DNA of 64,000 nucleotides from Gammaproteobacteria bacterium (GCA_024641475.1 JAHECZ010000006.1:1-64000); one strand, 5' to 3'. Positions 4,442-24,133 are shown, counted from the first letter of the stretch. The notes: generated from the letters alone by a model not told the origin. Program-made: numbers and translations.

Positions 4442-4915
4442 TTACCTGGGTTGGTTTTTTGGCTTGCGTTGTTCGGGGCGTAATTTCGCAGTGAAATATT
4501 CATCGGCCAAATCCAGATCAACCGGGACATTCGTTTTGTCTATCAACGCCTGTTCGCTGTCATTCCAGCCGCGCAATCCCATTTTTAATGACCAGACGTG
4601 CTGATATCCCATTTGTTGCATGACATCAGCAGCAAATACGCTTCGATAGCCAGAACGACAGACCACGACAATCGGTTTCATACGTGCTTCCGCCAGTTGT
4701 GGTACGGTTTCTTCATAATCATAATCGCAGGCAGATTCTAAAATGCCACGCGGCACGTTGATTGATCCCGGGATATGTAGCGCCTGAAATTCATATGGTT
4801 CGCGTACGTCGACAATCAACATGTCTTCATGTTGCATGCGCTCGGCCAGGTCCCAAGGTAAAATCTCGTTAACGCGGAGACTATATTCTTCGACTAGCTG
4901 TTTGAATGTCTTCAT
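4442..4915 (-). CDS. Single-domain rhodanese (sulfurtransferase)
   Basis: A 157-aa rhodanese domain that would carry a persulfide on its active-site cysteine. The core motifs are VDVREPYEFQALHIPGSINVP (residues about 35-55) and the active-site loop CRSGYRS (Cys86). There is no signal peptide, so it is cytoplasmic. Its ATG overlaps the stop of the NarL-like regulator by one base, placing it at the distal end of the dsr transcript. In other sulfur oxidisers a rhodanese with TusA hands sulfur to DsrE and DsrC. No tusA is in this window, so that role is inferred from position. The 3' end lies 8 bases from the convergent S24-fold gene. Confidence 0.9.
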   Translation of the reverse strand: MKTFKQLVEEYSLRVNEILPWDLAERMQHEDMLIVDVREPYEFQALHIPGSINVPRGILESACDYDYEETVPQLAEARMKPIVVVCRSGYRSVFAADVMQQMGYQHVWSLKMGLRGWNDSEQALIDKTNVPVDLDLADEYFTAKLRPEQRKPKNQPR

Positions 4916-5577
4916 CAGGAATTGGTGTGTTGTCTGGACAAGCCTTTTTCTACTGCCATGACGGCAGCTTCGACACGTGAATGGACATTCAGCTTGCGCA
5001 AAATAGCCTTGACATGTAATTTTACGGTGCCATCAGAAATTCCCAGATTACGCGCAATGGCCTTGTTACTTTGTCCCTCGGCAAGCAATCCGAGAATTTC
5101 AGTTTCGCGCGGTGTCAGCTCAGAAAACGGACTGTTATTGGACGCGGGTTCATCACTTTTGCCTTTTACTGCTTTGGCAAGAATAGGGGCCAGATCGGGC
5201 GCAACCACTGTTTTCCCGGCAACGATATCTCGCAACGCGATGACCAGCGCATCGGGTTCCATGTCTTTGAGTAAATATCCTTGCGCACCAGCCCGTAATG
5301 ATTCAACCAGATCGGTTTCTTCGGTGCTCGTGGTGAGCATGACGATAGGCATAGGCACATTCTGCGCGCGCAAGGTACGCAAGACGGTTAAACCATCCAG
5401 ATCCGGCATGCGCATATCCAGTAATACAACATCAGGTTTGATTTCATTAACCAGTGCTACGCAATCTGTTCCTCTATCGACTGATGCGGCAATCTCAATA
5501 CCACGACTGACTAATAACCCTTCCAGGCCGGCACGAAACAGGGTGTGATCATCGATCAGTACGACACGAAGACTCAT
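4915..5577 (-). CDS. NarL-type response regulator
   Basis: A 220-aa FixJ/NarL-family transcription factor. The receiver domain has DD at 9-10, phospho-acceptor Asp54 (VLLDMRMPD) and a conserved Thr/Lys switch (LTTS, LLKD). The C-terminal LuxR-type helix-turn-helix begins LTPRETEILGLLAEGQSNK. Its recognition helix TVKLHVKAIL closely resembles the NarL one, keeping the two DNA-contacting lysines; the valine between them is Leu here. It overlaps the histidine kinase by 4 bases (ATGA) and the rhodanese by 1. The kinase is its obvious partner. The NarL-type 7-2-7 palindrome upstream of dsrA (20101-20116) is the best candidate target in the window. Whether nitrate is the signal is not shown. Confidence 0.92.
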   Translation of the reverse strand: MSLRVVLIDDHTLFRAGLEGLLVSRGIEIAASVDRGTDCVALVNEIKPDVVLLDMRMPDLDGLTVLRTLRAQNVPMPIVMLTTSTEETDLVESLRAGAQGYLLKDMEPDALVIALRDIVAGKTVVAPDLAPILAKAVKGKSDEPASNNSPFSELTPRETEILGLLAEGQSNKAIARNLGISDGTVKLHVKAILRKLNVHSRVEAAVMAVEKGLSRQHTNS

Positions 5578-7238
5578 TGTTTTATCTGCCTTGTAGGAAA
5601 GTCAACCGGAATAGAGTTGAGTGATTGAGATGTATTTATCGGATTGGTTGCAGATGAGTAACGGAAAGACAAATTGATTCGTGTGCCTTCACCTGGTTCG
5701 CTTTCAATGCGTAAATCCGCATTAATACGTTTGGCGCGTTCAGCCATAATGTGTAAACCATAATGATCACGGTGTGTGTCAGGATTGGCCTGAGTATTCA
5801 TACCAACACCATCATCTTCCAGCAAGATGTCACATTCGCCTTGTGGTGTACTACGGACGATCACGCGGACATTGTGTGCCTGACTGTGCTTGCGAATATT
5901 ATTGAGTGATTCCTGGATAATTCGTAATGCTTCAACCTCAATAGAGGCGGGGAGTTGTACAATATTCCATTCCTGTTGCAGGAATATCGCAATGCCAGTC
6001 TGGTTGCGGAAACGATTAACCAGTTGTTGCACCGCAGGAACCAGGCCGCGCTTGTCAATGGGCGCACGAAAATGCGTGATTAATTCGCGCAACTCAGCAT
6101 AAGCTTCATCAAGATTGATTTCGATTTTTTCCAGTTCATGCCATACCGCCGGTTCTTCGCCTTTACGCAGATTTTCGTCCAATACGCGCGCCTGAAATCG
6201 TAAGCTGGCAAGGGTTTGCGCCAGCGAATCATGTAATTCATGAGCAATACGGGTACGTTCTTCCATTATCGATAAACGATTGGCTTCATCATCCAGACGG
6301 GATTTTTCAATTGCCATGCCTAAGTGGCGACCGATGCTGGTGAGCAGCTCATTAAGCTCATCAGATTCAACGAGTGATTCAGCCGCAACAAATAGATTGT
6401 ATACCCCGAGAGTTCGGTCGCGATATTGCAAGGGCACGGCGATCATGCCGAATGTTTCGGTGCTGTCAAAAAATGTATGGCCGATAATCTGGTCGCAGTG
6501 GCGTACATCATGTTCGTAGAGGACTTGCCCCTGATTATAGGCTGTGCCGCATAAACAGGTTGCTGCAGGGATAAACTGTTCGCGTTGAATGACTGCTTCA
6601 TCCAGGCCAGTGCTGGCAACCAGACGCATTTGATTATCTTCAGTGACCAGGCGAACGACGGCAGCACGTGCATTCACAACTTCTTTGAGCGTATGAAGAA
6701 ATCGGGTTAATAAATCGTCGAGATCGCGCGACACGTTGATGCTGGCGGCGACGTCATAAATAATTTCCAGTGAGCGGGTTTTTTGTGCAATGTGATGCGT
6801 TTGTTCATGCACCTGGCTTTGCATGTCTTCGCTTAGTGCCTGTAAAGTATCACTCAATCGATTGATATCTTGTTCTAGCGCAAAATATTCATTGGTGCCA
6901 CTGGTCAGCGACAGGCGACTATTCAGTTTGCCGGCGCGTATGCTTTGCGCCCATTCCCGTAACGCGGTTAATGGAGCCAGCAAGTTGCGTTGCAGCAGAA
7001 AAAATAAACTTAACAGGAGTAATAGCGCAATCCCAAGTAAAGTAAAAATAATCGGTTGAGCCAGTGTGGTACGCCCAGGTCCGTGTAATGCCCACAGGCT
7101 GATACCCCCTAAAGCAAGGATAACGAATGCGAGTGCAGCAAGCGGGATGCATAACCGGCTATGCCAAGGGCCGCCCATGGCAGCAGAAGTTACTGTAGTG
7201 GATTTGGCATTATGCAAAGTTGAGCTATTAGGCTGCAA
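5574..7238 (-). CDS. NarX-like sensor histidine kinase with GAF domain
   Basis: A 554-aa HisKA_3-type kinase. Two membrane helices (about 30-52 and 62-83) flank only about ten residues, so the periplasmic nitrate-sensing domain of true NarX is absent. A HAMP-like linker follows (about 85-140), then a GAF domain (about 165-310) with Cys228, Cys230 and Cys248. The kinase core has phospho-acceptor His333 in HELHDSLAQT and an ATPase domain (NNIRKHSQA, DDGVGM). The start is TTG at 7238, chosen because CAGGAG precedes it by 7 bases. It lies 77 bases after dsrR on the same strand. The signal is probably cytoplasmic and perhaps redox- or sulfur-linked through the cysteines, which is inference. Confidence 0.88.
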   Translation of the reverse strand: MQPNSSTLHNAKSTTVTSAAMGGPWHSRLCIPLAALAFVILALGGISLWALHGPGRTTLAQPIIFTLLGIALLLLLSLFFLLQRNLLAPLTALREWAQSIRAGKLNSRLSLTSGTNEYFALEQDINRLSDTLQALSEDMQSQVHEQTHHIAQKTRSLEIIYDVAASINVSRDLDDLLTRFLHTLKEVVNARAAVVRLVTEDNQMRLVASTGLDEAVIQREQFIPAATCLCGTAYNQGQVLYEHDVRHCDQIIGHTFFDSTETFGMIAVPLQYRDRTLGVYNLFVAAESLVESDELNELLTSIGRHLGMAIEKSRLDDEANRLSIMEERTRIAHELHDSLAQTLASLRFQARVLDENLRKGEEPAVWHELEKIEINLDEAYAELRELITHFRAPIDKRGLVPAVQQLVNRFRNQTGIAIFLQQEWNIVQLPASIEVEALRIIQESLNNIRKHSQAHNVRVIVRSTPQGECDILLEDDGVGMNTQANPDTHRDHYGLHIMAERAKRINADLRIESEPGEGTRINLSFRYSSATNPINTSQSLNSIPVDFPTRQIKQ

Positions 7239-15951: not shown

Positions 15952-15978
15952 ATGGAAGGGGTGGTGTACCCCTTCCAT
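15952..15978 (-). terminator. Hairpin after dsrC (leaky terminator or 3' stabiliser)
   Basis: A perfect 11-bp stem, arms 15952-15962 and 15968-15978 (ATGGAAGGGGT and its complement), with a 5-base loop. It lies 14 bases after the dsrC stop. The minus strand continues with an AT-rich ATTTAATTTTTA tract. This is a good intrinsic-terminator shape but dsrMKLJOPNR lie beyond it on the same strand, so partial read-through or a downstream promoter is needed. Confidence 0.72.
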
Positions 15979-18671: not shown

Positions 18672-19940
18672 TTAACCCGCTGCGGCCGCTTTTTCTTCAG
18701 CCTTACGTTGGAACCACTTCTCGGCTTCTTCATCCCAACCGTCGGTACGCACATAAGAACATTGACGTGGGCTGCTGACCATATTCGGGTCAACATCGAT
18801 GCCGATACCTTCGAGGAAGTTAACCAGGCCGATACGTTCGATCATTTCACCGGTACGCTCATGTTCCAGGGCGTTTTCAGCGAAGAAGTCGATGGTGTTT
18901 TGCGCCATTTCGACAATCTTTTCGTAGTCTTCAACGGTATCCAGTCTCATGAAAGGCACAATGACGGTACCCATCAGATCACCGATTTTCAGAGTACGCT
19001 TACCACCGATCAAAATGGTTACACCTTTGTCATCGCCAGGAGAGAGTGCTTTGGGCATCACGTTCAGGCAGTGCATGCAACGTACGCAATTTTTATTGTC
19101 GACCGCCAGGGTATCATCATCTTTCAGAGTCAGCGCCTGGGTCGGGCAACGTGTGGTGATGTTATCAATGACGTATTGACGACCTTTCTTTTTAACGAAA
19201 GCCTTCACTTCGTTTTGATCAACTTTCATTTCGTCGCGCCAGGTACCGATGACAGCAAAGTCGGAACGTTCAATTGAGTTCACACAATCATTCGGGCAAC
19301 CGGAAACTTTGAACTTGAATTTATAAGGCAGCGCAGGGCGATGCACGTCATCTGTAAAGGTGTTAACCAGGTGACGTTGAATCGCATGTTCGTTACAGCA
19401 AGACTGTTCGCAACGTGCCGAACCGACGCAGCACATGGCAGTACGTACGCATGGGCCCGCACCACCCAAGTCCCAACCGTATTCATTGATTTCATCAAAG
19501 AAGTGTTGAGTATTTTCGGTGGTGGTACCGATGAACATGATGTTACCGGTCTGACCATGGAAGGTAACCATGCCGGAACCGTATTTTTCCCAGCTGTCAG
19601 CCATTTGCTTCAGCATGGCGGTGGTGTAGAAATTACCTGCGGGCGGTTGCACGCGCAGGGTATGGAATTCTCTGGATTCTGGGAACGCAGCACCGACTTC
19701 GGAGAAGCGTGGAATAATACCGCCGCCGTAACCGAATACGGAAACCGTACCGCCTTTCCAATAGCCCTTGCGGGTTTCATAGGAATGTTCCAACTGACCC
19801 AGCAGGGAGTTGGCCATTTCGTTAATACGTTTTTCAGGATGTTTATCGCGCAGACGCTTGAAACCGGAAATGAAGCTGGGCCAAGGGCCTTCTTCGAGGA
19901 TATCAAGCATTGGTGTAGGGTAGATTTTCTTCTGGTCCAT
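18672..19940 (-). CDS. dsrA: DsrA, alpha subunit of reverse dissimilatory sulfite reductase
   Basis: A 422-aa catalytic subunit. The start is ATG 19940 (MDQKKIYPTPMLDILEEGPWPS), chosen because AGAGGAGAACGCC precedes it and because the family is about 415-420 aa; the frame stays open upstream but that part is not family-like. Cluster and siroheme motifs include CVRTAMCCVG, CEQSCC and SGCPNDC, and the ferredoxin-type CVRCMHC follows. As part of rDsr it oxidises sulfur carried by DsrC to sulfite. It is the first gene of the operon, with a 384-base divergent regulatory region upstream. Confidence 0.97.
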   Translation of the reverse strand: MDQKKIYPTPMLDILEEGPWPSFISGFKRLRDKHPEKRINEMANSLLGQLEHSYETRKGYWKGGTVSVFGYGGGIIPRFSEVGAAFPESREFHTLRVQPPAGNFYTTAMLKQMADSWEKYGSGMVTFHGQTGNIMFIGTTTENTQHFFDEINEYGWDLGGAGPCVRTAMCCVGSARCEQSCCNEHAIQRHLVNTFTDDVHRPALPYKFKFKVSGCPNDCVNSIERSDFAVIGTWRDEMKVDQNEVKAFVKKKGRQYVIDNITTRCPTQALTLKDDDTLAVDNKNCVRCMHCLNVMPKALSPGDDKGVTILIGGKRTLKIGDLMGTVIVPFMRLDTVEDYEKIVEMAQNTIDFFAENALEHERTGEMIERIGLVNFLEGIGIDVDPNMVSSPRQCSYVRTDGWDEEAEKWFQRKAEEKAAAAG

Positions 19941-20324
19941 GGCGTTCTCCTCTGAGAAATTAACCAAGTAATGTGCCGGCAATACGGTTAAATCATGTTC
20001 TGGGGCCATAATGGTCCCCGGAATAATTAACTTGCGCAGTCTAGGGGGCACTTCCTATCCGGGAGAACCCCACTAATGGGAGTGACACCATCATTGAGCT
20101 TACCTCTTAAGAGGTAGACACATTTGTGTGCATCTATGGTGCGTCCCACGATAAAACTACTCAAGCATTACTAAACCAAACAAAAACAGTATGTTATAGA
20201 CCATAGCTGTTTATGAAGGCGCGCATTATATATCCCTTTGTTGTGCAGGAGAATAGAGGAGTAGGTTTTTATACCCGAACTGGAGATAGGCAATTTTGCT
20301 GGCTACATTAAAATAGGCACCAGC
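19941..20324. promoter_or_regulatory. dsrA upstream region, divergent with the TauD-like gene
   Basis: A 384-base intergenic region without a credible ORF. It holds a perfect 16-bp palindrome at 20101-20116, a second near-palindrome GGGGCCATAATGGTCCCC starting at 20002 that would lie in the dsrA leader, and a short ACACA-TT-TGTGT dyad at 20118-20129. No strong consensus -10/-35 pair for dsrA is evident, consistent with activator dependence. It must also carry the promoter for the divergent dioxygenase cluster. Confidence 0.6.
20101..20116. promoter_or_regulatory. Candidate NarL-type 7-2-7 operator
   Basis: TACCTCTTAAGAGGTA is a perfect palindrome. It splits as TACCTCT, TA, AGAGGTA, both halves matching the NarL heptamer TACYYMT, with the two-base spacing used by NarL/NarP dimers. 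It lies 161 bases upstream of the dsrA start and 209 bases upstream of the divergent gene. A NarL-like regulator with a near-identical recognition helix is encoded at 4915-5577. Confidence 0.7.
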
Positions 20325-21245
20325 ATGTCCAGCCTGACTAACAACAACCCGGCAGCCAGTCCGTTCTTAACTGCAAATCAGCAGAGCTATGTGCAATGGC
20401 GGGATGAAAAATTGCAAAACTATCCGCTGGTAGCTGAATCGTTACGCGTAGATATTGGCAATCCGTTAGCGTTAACACCAGCCGAACATGCCAGCGTACT
20501 GGCTAATATCCGCAAGACGAACCTGTCTTTATATCGCATCAATCAGCCTCAATCAGCAGACAAACACGCCATCCGGATATTAGGAAGGCAGTTTGGACTG
20601 GAAAGCCTTGATAGCAATATTTGTGCGGATGAAGACAGTATTACCTCGCTGCGCGTGGTGTCGGCTGGTCGGCATAAAGGCTATATTCCGTATTCAAACC
20701 GGCGCTTAAGCTGGCACACGGATGGTTATTACAATCCAGCTGACAAGCAAATACGCGCAATTGTCATGCATTGTGTGGTGCCCGCACAGGAAGGGGGCAT
20801 CAATATGTATCTGGACCATGAAATATTATATCTATACTTGCGTGAGCGGGATCCCGCCTATATCTCCGCTTTGATGCACCCGCAAGCGATGACGATTCCG
20901 CCCAATGTCGAAGATGGCGATGAAATACGCGGTACCCAAACTGGCCCGGTCTTTTCAGTAGATACAGCAGGGAATCTGCATATGCGTTATTCGGCACGTA
21001 CCCGCAATATTGTCTGGCGTGATGATGGCATCACACAAAATGCGATCGAATACATTACTGAATTACTCAACAGTAACATGCCTTACCTGTTACGGTATCG
21101 GCTACAGGCAAACGAAGGTGTGATCAGCAACAATGTGCTGCACAACCGGACTGCATTTACGGACAGCGATGAACCAGCCAGAAAACGCCTGTTATATCGG
21201 GCGCGATATTTTGATCGCACACACGGTGCGGATGTCAGTGGTTAA
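20325..21245 (+). CDS. TauD/TfdA-like Fe(II)/2-oxoglutarate dioxygenase
   Basis: A 306-aa cytoplasmic non-heme iron oxygenase of the clavaminate synthase-like superfamily. The iron ligands appear as His131 and Asp133 in SWHTDGYYNP, with distal His273 in NNVLHNRTAF, followed by the co-substrate-binding Arg region RLLYRARYF. It opens a cluster divergent from dsrA and is followed after 21 bases by a 62-aa gene. TauD itself releases sulfite from taurine; a role on a sulfur compound here is suggested only by context. The substrate is unknown. Confidence 0.82.
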   Translation: MSSLTNNNPAASPFLTANQQSYVQWRDEKLQNYPLVAESLRVDIGNPLALTPAEHASVLANIRKTNLSLYRINQPQSADKHAIRILGRQFGLESLDSNICADEDSITSLRVVSAGRHKGYIPYSNRRLSWHTDGYYNPADKQIRAIVMHCVVPAQEGGINMYLDHEILYLYLRERDPAYISALMHPQAMTIPPNVEDGDEIRGTQTGPVFSVDTAGNLHMRYSARTRNIVWRDDGITQNAIEYITELLNSNMPYLLRYRLQANEGVISNNVLHNRTAFTDSDEPARKRLLYRARYFDRTHGADVSG

Positions 21246-21266
21246 TTTAAGCGTGGAAGGTATCCT

Positions 21267-21455
21267 ATGTTGTGGTTAAGCGAAGTACTGATCAAGGAAC
21301 ACCAACTTGACTCATTTGAACAGCTCAAACAGGTGTTACGCACACGTGCGGCCACAGGCGAGCGGTTTTTTAGTATGGATGTGAAACCTACGTTTGCTGA
21401 TACGCCGGACAACTGGGAAGATCAGCTCGAATCTGTATTTACCAGTGGGCAGTAG
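21267..21455 (+). CDS. Small protein of unknown function (62 aa)
   Basis: A 62-aa acidic, soluble protein starting MLWLSEVLIKEHQLDSFEQLKQVL. GGAAGG precedes the ATG. There is no cysteine, membrane segment or known motif. It is tightly spaced between the dioxygenase (21 bases) and the Cas6-like gene (15 bases), which supports a real gene cotranscribed with both. I do not recognise its family. Confidence 0.65.
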   Translation: MLWLSEVLIKEHQLDSFEQLKQVLRTRAATGERFFSMDVKPTFADTPDNWEDQLESVFTSGQ

Positions 21456-21470
21456 CCAAGAGAAATAATT

Positions 21471-22160
21471 ATGTTTTGGACTGACGATAACTCGGCAAAA
21501 AATGAATTCATCATTCCAGATGACATTGTGGATATTTCATTCAAGCTGGATTGCAAATCGTTACCGTTAGATCACGCCTGGAATCTGTCAATTGCATTGC
21601 AGGGTGCGCTTCCCTGGTTACCACATGATATTCATACCGGTGTGCACCTTATCCATATGGCAGAATCCGGTAATGGCTGGCAACGACCTGATGATCCGGC
21701 GAATGACGTCTTATATCTGTCTAAACGTGCTCGTCTGACCTTGCGTATTCCAAAACACAGAATTGATGATGCCCATGCTCTTACAGGGAAAACATTAGCG
21801 ATCGATGGCAACGTTTTAACTGTGCGAGAAGGGACAGTTAAATTACTAAGTCAATTACCGACGCTATTCGCACGCTACGTAGTGTGTGATCGCACAATGA
21901 GTGAACATCAGTTTTTAACTGTTTCCGCTCAACAACTCAAAGCAATGGATATACCGGTATTGAAATTGATGGCTGGTAAAGAAACAATATTTCGCCTGGC
22001 AAAAGGTCCTGTCACAACCCGCAGTTTGATGGTGGCCGATCTGACGCCAGCAAATTCGGTTCGCCTGCAGCAGCATGGCTTGGGTGACGGACGTCTGTAT
22101 GGCTGTGGCTTGTTCCTTCCCCAAAAAGGGATAAATGCGGTAAAAAGCGACGCTGAGTAG
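21471..22160 (+). CDS. Orphan Cas6/Cmx6-like protein
   Basis: A 229-aa protein resembling the Cas6 family of the type I-MYXAN kind. The N-terminal strand VDISFKLDCKSLPLDHAW (His35) is followed by ALPWLPHDIHTGVHLIHM, then RARLTLRIPKHRI. The C-terminal glycine-rich loop GLGDGRLYGCGLFLPQKGI (about 203-221) is the RNA-binding hallmark of Cas6-type ferredoxin folds. Cas6 proteins cut CRISPR precursor RNA, but there is no CRISPR array or other cas gene in this window. It sits between a 62-aa gene and a DsrC paralogue, so a function on another RNA, linked to sulfur metabolism, is plausible. The catalytic residue cannot be assigned with certainty. Confidence 0.75.
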   Translation: MFWTDDNSAKNEFIIPDDIVDISFKLDCKSLPLDHAWNLSIALQGALPWLPHDIHTGVHLIHMAESGNGWQRPDDPANDVLYLSKRARLTLRIPKHRIDDAHALTGKTLAIDGNVLTVREGTVKLLSQLPTLFARYVVCDRTMSEHQFLTVSAQQLKAMDIPVLKLMAGKETIFRLAKGPVTTRSLMVADLTPANSVRLQQHGLGDGRLYGCGLFLPQKGINAVKSDAE

Positions 22161-22254
22161 TTGATCGGCGCGCAAAATTCCCGATAATAAGCACCCTTCG
22201 AATTTAGGTAATAGTGAACACATTTATTAACAACTATTAAGAGGACTCACGACG

Positions 22255-22593
22255 ATGGCCATTGAAATTAACGGCAAAACCATCGAAACCACGGCAACGG
22301 GTTATTTGGTCAATACCGAAGACTGGACGAAGGAATTGGCGCAGGAACTGGCAAAAATTGAGGGGATTGATGCGCTCACTCAAAAACACTGGGACATTAT
22401 TGATTATCTGCGCGAGGAATATTTTAACAATGCCCAAAATCAGCCAAACGAACGTACCATCCTGAAAGCCATGTCGGATAAATGGGGCAAGGCTACGTCG
22501 AAAGACACGTATGATCTGTTCCCACAAATGCCGTCCAAGCAAGGTGGTAAAATTGCCGGATTACCCGAGAGCCGTCGTAAAGGCGGGTATTAA
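22255..22593 (+). CDS. rspA: DsrC-family protein without cysteines (RspA type)
   Basis: A 112-aa DsrC/TusE homologue: MAIEINGKTIETTATGYL start, then KHWDIIDYLREEYF as in DsrC. The C-terminal arm is KQGGKIAGLPESRRKGGY; Gly98 replaces the first redox cysteine, the penultimate cysteine is also missing, and the whole protein has no cysteine. Such members have been named RspA (regulatory sulfur-related protein) and cannot carry persulfide. It lies 94 bases after the Cas6-like gene. A regulatory or competitor role with respect to true DsrC (15992-16324) is inferred. Confidence 0.85.
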   Translation: MAIEINGKTIETTATGYLVNTEDWTKELAQELAKIEGIDALTQKHWDIIDYLREEYFNNAQNQPNERTILKAMSDKWGKATSKDTYDLFPQMPSKQGGKIAGLPESRRKGGY

Positions 22594-22594
22594 A

Positions 22595-22625
22595 ACAACT
22601 GCTATCCAAATGGGATAGTGGTTGT
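22595..22625 (+). other. Stem-loop immediately after the cysteine-less DsrC gene
   Basis: Arms 22595-22607 and 22613-22625 form 13 pairs, two of them G-U in the plus-strand RNA, around a 5-base loop. It begins one base after the stop codon. No U-run follows, so it looks like a 3' stability element or processing hairpin rather than a classic terminator. Confidence 0.55.
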
Positions 22626-22724
22626 CAGTAAGCTGGCAGTGTATATTTCCGGTTCTATAGCAGTCTTTGAGATAGCTAAAGATTGAAAACGGATTCAAAT
22701 TCAAAGCGTTAATGCGAGGTAGCT

Positions 22725-22931
22725 ATGAGTGACAAGCAGGCCAAAATCAAGAAAATGCTTGAAATGCAAAAAGCATTTATGCAATTCGAACACGAAAATG
22801 GCGTAGACGCCGAAACTTATTATGCAGCTGCAGCTGGTCATCCGTTGCATAACTATCGTCAGGAATACCATGCACTGGCCAATGATGTATGTAACATGGC
22901 CCATGCTGAGAAAGGCTCCAAACGCGATTAA
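22725..22931 (+). CDS. Small protein of unknown function (68 aa)
   Basis: A 68-aa soluble protein beginning MSDKQAKIKKMLEMQKAFMQFE, with a lysine-rich amphipathic N-terminal helix and a conserved-looking YYAAAAGHPLHNYRQEY segment. GCGAGGTAGCT precedes the ATG. It stands 131 bases after the DsrC-like gene and ends 24 bases before a strong intrinsic terminator, which argues for a real gene closing this cluster. Family not recognised. Confidence 0.7.
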   Translation: MSDKQAKIKKMLEMQKAFMQFEHENGVDAETYYAAAAGHPLHNYRQEYHALANDVCNMAHAEKGSKRD

Positions 22932-22954: not shown

Positions 22955-22984
22955 CAAAAAAGCCGCTTAAAAGCGGCTTTTTTG
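22955..22984 (+). terminator. Intrinsic terminator closing the dioxygenase/Cas6-like/RspA cluster
   Basis: AGCCGCTT (22961-22968) and AAGCGGCT (22971-22978) form a GC-rich stem flanked by an A-run before and six Ts after, a textbook Rho-independent terminator. It can work on either strand. Confidence 0.9.
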
Positions 22985-23070: not shown

Positions 23071-23745
23071 TTATACTTCTGACCACATACGCACCAGATT
23101 AACGTAAGTTCGATCGATTTTTTTGGTACTTTCAGCGTCGGGAGTGGATTGTAGCAGTGGCTCACGCACGCTATTAAGCTCATAGAGCAGTTCACGCTGA
23201 GCCGGGTCGCGGACCAGGCTTTGTATCCAGGTGACCGCAACCAGGCGCTGCCCACGTGTAACGGCGTCAACCCGATGTAAAGTGGAAGAGGGATAGACGA
23301 CTGCGGAACCGGCAGGCAATTTGATATTTTTATCACCGAAACTGGTGCGAATGATTAATTCGCCGCCAGCGTATTCTGTTGGGTCATTGAGAAACAAGGT
23401 TGTCGACACGTCGGAACGATAGCGTTGACCGGCAGGGCCCATCACCGGATCATCGATGTGATCGCCGTACGCATGACCATGGCTATACCGGGCATAAATA
23501 GGCATGGCGATGCGGTGGGGTAAGGCCGCACTCTGGAATTGCGGATGAGACACCAGATTGCTCATAACCAAATTATTCAGGCGGTGTAATTGTGCCGCGT
23601 CGTGCTGTATTTCTTCATTGTGCTTGACACGTTGGGCGGCATCACCGGCGGAGAGCTTGCCATCCACAAATGGCGCACCCGCCAATAATTTTTGCGCTTC
23701 GCGAAGTTGCTCGCTACTGAGAATGTCGGGTATGACCACAAGCAT
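23071..23745 (-). CDS. PiuC/PKHX-type Fe(II)/2OG dioxygenase
   Basis: A 224-aa Fe2+-dependent dioxygenase of the PiuC family (usual length about 225). The iron ligands are in HGHAYGDHIDDP (His and Asp), with the distal His in YPSSTLHRVDAV and the co-substrate Arg in RGQRLVAVTWIQS. The family often accompanies TonB-dependent iron uptake, but its neighbour here is a small unknown gene on the other strand. Physiological substrate not known. Confidence 0.88.
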   Translation of the reverse strand: MLVVIPDILSSEQLREAQKLLAGAPFVDGKLSAGDAAQRVKHNEEIQHDAAQLHRLNNLVMSNLVSHPQFQSAALPHRIAMPIYARYSHGHAYGDHIDDPVMGPAGQRYRSDVSTTLFLNDPTEYAGGELIIRTSFGDKNIKLPAGSAVVYPSSTLHRVDAVTRGQRLVAVTWIQSLVRDPAQRELLYELNSVREPLLQSTPDAESTKKIDRTYVNLVRMWSEV

Positions 23746-23809: not shown

Positions 23810-24133
23810 ATGAAACTGAATGTGAATATCGACGGTCAGGACTATCCCATCGAAGTACCAACCGACCTGTTGTTTGGGGCACAAGAATTCTTCCAAAAAA
23901 TGGATCGCGATCTGGATGCCGGTTGGCAAATGAGCCGGGAATGGGTCAGAGAACTCAATACATTGCAACGTTGTCAGGTAGTGGCGAATCGATTGCTGAC
24001 GGCGCTTGAAACCGAAAATCAGGCGAGTGCCGTCATGATGGCCGGTTATATCGTCAATAAATTACCGACAGTGCAAACTATCTATATCGATACCGAAGGC
24101 GATATGTCAGCGACGGAGATTATTACGGCCTGA
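23810..24133 (+). CDS. Conserved hypothetical protein (107 aa)
   Basis: A 107-aa soluble protein beginning MKLNVNIDGQDYPIEVPTDLLFGAQEFFQKMD. The first 20 residues look like a beta-hairpin, followed by helices (DRDLDAGWQMSREWVREL, VVANRLLTALETENQA). It has one cysteine and no membrane segment. It is divergent from the PiuC-like gene and convergent with the propeller gene. I do not recognise the family; the coherent, non-repetitive composition supports a real gene. Confidence 0.65.
   Translation: MKLNVNIDGQDYPIEVPTDLLFGAQEFFQKMDRDLDAGWQMSREWVRELNTLQRCQVVANRLLTALETENQASAVMMAGYIVNKLPTVQTIYIDTEGDMSATEIITA

Follow-up and report, generated by a model that had tools for sequence, protein, structure and literature searches.

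The described systems closest to the locus analysed here are the Cas6 proteins of CRISPR loci, on the one hand, and the rDsr sulfur-oxidation cluster, on the other. Type I Cas6/Cmx6 proteins (TIGR02807, PF09559), such as those of the cyanobacterial plasmid cas6-cas3-cmx8 loci, belong to the same profile family as the dsr-linked Cas6 protein described below, and share with it a histidine before helix 1, the equivalents of Arg92 and Arg135, and a GxGxxxxxGxG loop. However, identity between the two amounts to 24-29%, and the dsr-linked protein has no cas neighbours. Among solved structures, the best relative (sequence 2.4e-6, fold 4e-16) comes from the type I-B CAST Cascade (PDB 8fcj/8fcu); that Cas6, in contrast, is a subunit of a CRISPR-transposon, carries Asn at the position of H35, and lacks the SGNGW insert. 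Cas6-3 from Sulfolobus solfataricus cuts ncRNA60, a non-CRISPR cellular RNA, and therefore provides a precedent for a cellular RNA substrate (PMC4041471), even though it is still a CRISPR enzyme, whereas the dsr-linked protein has no remaining CRISPR link. The rDsr cluster, with its DsrC and RspA proteins, is the setting inside which this Cas6 sits and along with which it is inherited, but the accessible text of its descriptions (e.g. PMC10504309, PMC5944118) does not list a Cas6-like component, and no record of a Cas6-dsr link was found in the searchable literature.

The operon and its Cas6-family protein

The features considered here are listed below by their positions in the window, i.e. 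the whole 64-kb stretch of DNA that was analysed:

15952-15978, minus strand: hairpin in the dsrC-dsrM gap (fold, locus comparison), tested and unsupported as an obligate substrate
18672-20051, minus strand: dsrA, the divergent neighbour (TIGR02064 match at 18696-19907)
20273-20314, plus strand: putative promoter of the TauD-p62-Cas6-RspA operon, with a NarL-like palindrome at 20273-20289 (9.3 bits) and a -10-like TAAAAT at 20309-20314
20325-21245, plus strand: TauD-like 2-oxoglutarate/Fe(II) dioxygenase, whose gene opens the operon (PF02668, 1.5e-18)
21267-21455, plus strand: p62, a conserved 62-aa protein with a DVKPPFxDTPxNWE core
21471-22160, plus strand: dsr-linked Cas6/Cmx6 homologue of 229 aa (PF09559, TIGR02807, AlphaFold2 model, Foldseek, conservation)
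22255-22593, plus strand: RspA-type DsrC paralogue (PF04358, 5.7e-31; TIGR03342)
22603-22647, plus strand: putative p68 promoter, with the palindrome TATCCAAATGGGATA at 22603-22617 and a -10-like TATATT at 22642-22647
22725-22931, plus strand: p68, a conserved 68-aa protein found in 112 of 180 loci, whose gene is the last in the set
22956-22983, no strand assigned: terminator-like hairpin AAGCCGCTTAAAAGCGGCTT followed by a T-run, closing the gene set (sequence, fold)

The genes for TauD, p62, Cas6, RspA, and p68 all lie on the plus strand, span 2.6 kb, and diverge from dsrA, with gaps of 21, 15, and 94 nt between TauD and p62, p62 and Cas6, and Cas6 and RspA, respectively. For the first four genes, this is the layout described in the initial annotation, which placed Cas6 in tight spacing among the TauD-like, 62-aa, and RspA-type DsrC genes. 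The TauD-like protein looks like a working 2-oxoglutarate oxygenase, since its metal site H131-x-D133...H273 and R288 are kept across 119 homologues. The RspA-type DsrC has no cysteines at all, the two C-terminal ones of DsrC being absent; in place of the cysteine arm it ends in RKGGY, nearly invariant in the window and 130 homologues, a sequence feature hinting that the arm has taken on a new, fixed binding function. Profile searches matched p62 to no Pfam or NCBIfam family and p68 to no Pfam family. Two further genes often stand downstream of the set: one for a PKHD-type 2-oxoglutarate oxygenase (23071-23745 in the window; 105 of 180 loci) and one for a 107-aa protein, p107 (23810-24133; 72 of 180 loci).

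Both sequence profiles and the predicted structure identify the product of 21471-22160 unambiguously as a true member of the Cas6 family, as the initial annotation had claimed. It matches PF09559 with E=4.3e-58 (196.9 bits against a cut-off of 26.7), the NCBIfam model cas6_cmx6 (TIGR02807) with 117.8 bits (cut-off 98.85), and the Cas6 models of PADLOC with up to 194.9 bits. Structure prediction, which had been recommended as a check, returned a Cas6-type fold: the AlphaFold2 model, with an input alignment of 52 relatives (mean pLDDT 88.7, pTM 0.84), is a predicted RAMP double ferredoxin-like fold, the top Foldseek match of which is 8fcu_B (E 4e-16, TM 0.77), and every one of the 44 PDB hits with E<=0.001 is a Cas6/Cse3 or Cascade chain. 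The C-terminal glycine-rich loop that had also been claimed for this protein, GLGDGRLYGCGLF, is present and spans G203-F215, with a conserved GLGDGRLYGCG that fits the GxGxxxxxGxG pattern.

Conservation among 165 homologues is high at several positions: H35 is found in 163 (Asn in the other two), R86 and R92 in 165 each, G213 in all 165, and Lys or Arg at position 219 likewise in all 165. H35, R92, R135, Q200, and the glycine-rich loop are common to CRISPR Cmx6 and nearly invariant in the dsr-linked group, while W3, N68-G69-W70, S84, R86, E145, K165, and K219 are confined to the latter. The family-specific motifs are S66-G-N-G-W70 and S84-x-R86 (SRR), the first of which is the mark of the gammaproteobacterial branch. 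In the AlphaFold2 model, H35 lies directly N-terminal of the first helix, and the catalytic histidine of well-studied Cas6 enzymes is located near this helix. By analogy, we infer that H35 would be catalytic, acting as a general base; this role is drawn from knowledge of the family, in which an equivalent of H35 is also present in CRISPR Cmx6 and is replaced by Asn in 8fcj. Given the Asn at this position, catalysis may in places be lost or proceed through other residues. The SGNGW loop is modelled with a confidence below 50, yet N68, G69, and W70 are invariant in A2, and this combination suggests that the loop becomes ordered upon binding to RNA or to a partner.

Linkage to dsr and relation to CRISPR

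In a sample of 369 genomes of the class, where dsrA was assigned by strong TIGR02064 matches only, a PF09559 Cas6 was found in 118. Cas6 and dsrA occurred together in 111 genomes, Cas6 without dsrA in 7, dsrA without Cas6 in 8, and neither in 243 (Fisher p=7e-75). Inspection of three dsrA-only genomes (G245, G109, and G162) placed dsrA at or close to a contig end in each, which means that they do not count as exceptions to the linkage, as each assembly stops before the Cas6 side; the contig likewise stops near the operon in several of the Cas6-only genomes. At the level of the order, PF09559 is single-copy in 30 of 40 genomes, with 18 of 18 genera represented, and both Cas6 and dsrA are missing in 7 genomes.

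Gene order is conserved as well. On 20 long contigs of the order, the arrangement around Cas6 is retained to the contig limits, with dsrA divergent. A survey of 180 Cas6 loci, which includes some genomes fetched twice, found RspA in 148, TauD in 143, dsrA in 141, p62 in 131, and p68 in 112, the recurring set being dsrA divergent from TauD, p62, sometimes a helical protein, Cas6, RspA, and p68. At least one of dsrA, B, E, or F falls inside the fetched stretch in 125 of 163 distinct loci, and many of the others stop nearby. Chance is excluded as the origin of this arrangement because it recurs on the 20 long contigs and in most of the 180 loci. Absence of sulfur genes around homologues, named in the initial annotation as evidence that would speak against its reading, was thus not seen; instead, the linkage to dsr and rspA is tight. 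In a named scan, the count of relatives was at least 555, and the matches listed include Thioalkalivibrio denitrificans, Thiothrix fructosivorans, T. lacustris, Thiohalobacter thiocyanaticus, a Solemya gill symbiont, Ca. Marithrix, and Ca. Thiosymbion. Reduced genomes of 1.0-1.1 Mb retain the gene set with Cas6. A phylum-wide sample added three more matches (L249-L251; genomes G632, G605, and G656), adjoining dsrA and RspA; these basal-branch homologues keep H35, lack the SGNGW motif, and have TauD further downstream.

Some variants of the locus were also observed. A conserved protein of about 235 aa is encoded between p62 and Cas6 in 42 of the 180 loci (e.g. L088, L114, L122, and L201); it is a predicted all-helical, TPR-like solenoid (AlphaFold2 pLDDT 89.3), matches no Pfam family, and is not present in the window. 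In a few genomes (L112, L144, L145, and L148), the Cas6 gene is located away from dsr, and therefore its function does not depend on adjacency. There it adjoins housekeeping genes; the genomes of L145 and L148 measure 1.4-1.5 Mb, and in L145 the direct divergent neighbour of Cas6 is a ribonuclease III-like gene, behind which lies an era-like gene.

The array scan and the gene calls of the window agree with the earlier claim that the 64 kb contain neither a CRISPR array nor a cas gene: there is no direct-repeat array, and no cas gene adjoins Cas6, dsr-linked genes being found instead around the 180 loci. The whole genome contains no Cas1, no RAMP protein, no PF10040-type Cas6, and no Cas3 above the cut-off, all helicase matches being below it; type I cas genes elsewhere in the genome, which had been put forward as a finding that would overturn the reading, were looked for and none was found. 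Across the 369 genomes of the class, Cas6 is not associated with cas1 (OR 1.4, p=0.13). When tested, therefore, the dsr-linked Cas6 did not prove to be a member of a CRISPR system, and the existence of a CRISPR-independent, dsr-linked Cas6 family is close to certain.

Regarding its descent, eight cyanobacterial plasmid Cmx6 genes, most of them beside cas3 or cas8, were taken as reference, seven of them full-length and included in the tree. This unrooted tree splits the dsr-linked proteins from the cyanobacterial CRISPR Cmx6 with a support of 100/98. We infer a direction of descent from CRISPR to dsr, which rests on Cas6 being a CRISPR family elsewhere, the tree itself being unrooted. Distances between Cas6 proteins correlate with those between DsrA proteins (Spearman 0.51, permutation p=0.001), which is consistent with the two having been inherited together. 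A viral origin was discarded, with zero relatives in viral contigs or phages, and the plasmid relatives were the cyanobacterial Cmx6 only, which served as outgroup.

Candidate RNA substrates and promoters

The hairpins that follow dsrC, dsrP, and the RspA gene had been proposed in the initial annotation as candidate, if speculative, substrates of Cas6, and none of them held up. The motif between rspA and p68 first resembled a conserved RNA. It is most simply read, however, as a putative operator upstream of p68, because it keeps a mostly fixed distance to the -10-like hexamer and its palindrome is found again in the dsrA-TauD gap; the supposed rspA hairpin is the palindrome of this NarL-like operator. 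Of 99 loci, 63 carry a palindrome of the type TAYCCCNNNNGGGRTA upstream of p68 (0.4 expected, with a matrix trained on 37 of these 99 regions), and 70 of 130 carry one in the dsrA-TauD gap (2.2 expected); before Cas6 there is no enrichment (1 of 180 loci). In the window, the p68 palindrome is the single match of its form in 64 kb, and the palindrome of the operon promoter is a weak match, the enrichment there being strong family-wide. The distance to the -10-like hexamer of p68 promoters is mostly 20 nt (23 of 37 seeds), a fixed spacing that was looked for in the dsrA-TauD gap and not seen.

The dsrC-dsrM hairpin is strong, lies about 16 nt past the dsrC stop, and is found in 73 of 82 loci, with a T-rich tail in about 21%, i.e. 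mostly without a T-run. Its stem sequence shows no conservation across loci, and the hairpin is missing in the Cas6-bearing L084, L101, L128, and L132, both of which argue against it as a Cas6 substrate. Its 5' arms are purine-rich in many loci, and it may stabilise the dsrC mRNA. With a T-run behind it, the hairpin after dsrP looks like a terminator. Rfam families gave only sub-threshold matches in the region.

At its far end, the dsr cluster encodes a NarL-like regulator (4915-5577) and a NarQ/X-like kinase, together spanning 4915-7238. Genes of this kind lie directly 3' of the Cas6-RspA set in several other loci. Judging from these sequences, a single regulator may control dsr and the TauD-p62-Cas6-RspA operon jointly. 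The NarL-type palindrome shared across many families marks a candidate common regulon of sulfur oxidation. In Allochromatium, DsrC binds DNA upstream of dsr, according to PMC5944118.

Proposed role and alternatives

The reading we lean towards is that a Cas6 was exapted in the distant past and now takes part, probably as an endonuclease that binds RNA, in the control of dsr. According to this proposal, a Cas6-family protein would have departed from CRISPR immunity long ago and become a permanent part of a dsr-linked operon in sulfur-oxidising Gammaproteobacteria in the wide sense. It would still bind, and probably cut, one specific cellular RNA, with H35 acting as the general base and the glycine-rich loop seating the RNA, while the SGNGW loop would close over either the RNA or the product of a neighbouring gene, be it RspA, p62, p68, or the helical solenoid protein. 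Cleavage would most likely serve the post-transcriptional control of the dsr region. That the protein remains RNA-binding, and probably RNA-cutting, is likely; the role in dsr control is the leading, though unproven, one. The domesticated RNA-processing factor tied to sulfur oxidation that was initially postulated is thus strongly supported in its sulfur linkage and CRISPR independence. Conservation of the fold, of the glycine-rich loop, and of the histidine predicted to be catalytic makes an RNA-related role plausible. A more elaborate version, which we regard as speculative and improbable, would make the exapted CRISPR enzyme a dedicated regulator that cuts RNA to steer energy metabolism: a ribonucleoprotein of the Cas6-like protein, RspA, and the 2-oxoglutarate oxygenase would set dsr expression according to sulfur supply, the cysteine-free RspA being the sensor of the sulfur state.

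Alternatively, the protein could be a catalytically dead Cas6 that cuts nothing and serves as an RNA- or protein-binding scaffold, joining RspA, TauD, and the small proteins in a complex that handles protein-bound sulfur. The confinement of the SGNGW..SRR motif and K219 to the dsr-linked group, the invariance of a loop of low model confidence, as a partner-binding loop would show, and the helical solenoid protein inserted beside Cas6 in 42 loci all fit this idea; nevertheless, the near-invariance of H35, R92, R135, and the glycine-rich loop, all shared with CRISPR Cmx6, is difficult to account for unless RNA is bound, and we consider such a scaffold doubtful. Less probable still is the processing of the dsr messenger at the dsrC-dsrM hairpin, which would leave a protected dsrC end and raise DsrC over the membrane complex. 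Many Cas6 enzymes cut at the 3' base of a hairpin, and by analogy the widespread hairpin, mostly without a T-run, would offer such a site, but its stems are not conserved, four Cas6-bearing loci lack it, and hairpins of this kind are common stabilisers of mRNAs without any Cas6.

The remaining explanation, an ordinary CRISPR Cas6 that merely lies by dsr and serves arrays in trans, finds some backing in the NCBI equivalog model, which names the protein cas6_cmx6, and in the cas1 gene also present in 50 of the 118 class genomes with Cas6. It is, however, very hard to reconcile with a genome devoid of cas1, RAMP, and above-cut-off cas3, with the lack of association with cas1 against a near-complete one with dsrA, and with a separate clade retained at the dsr locus of reduced genomes, and we give it hardly any credence.

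Among gammaproteobacterial sulfur oxidisers, the accessory set of TauD, p62, Cas6, RspA, and p68 is almost as universal as dsrA. If the preferred reading of an exapted, RNA-binding Cas6 is true, one of the core pathways of the sulfur cycle includes a hitherto undescribed component that is probably based on RNA, and this family would represent a clear case of a Cas6 that has left immunity and become fixed in the metabolism of many families. Since the equivalog model fires on the protein and the named scan found so many relatives, annotation pipelines appear to mislabel dsr-linked genes of sulfur bacteria as CRISPR cas6.
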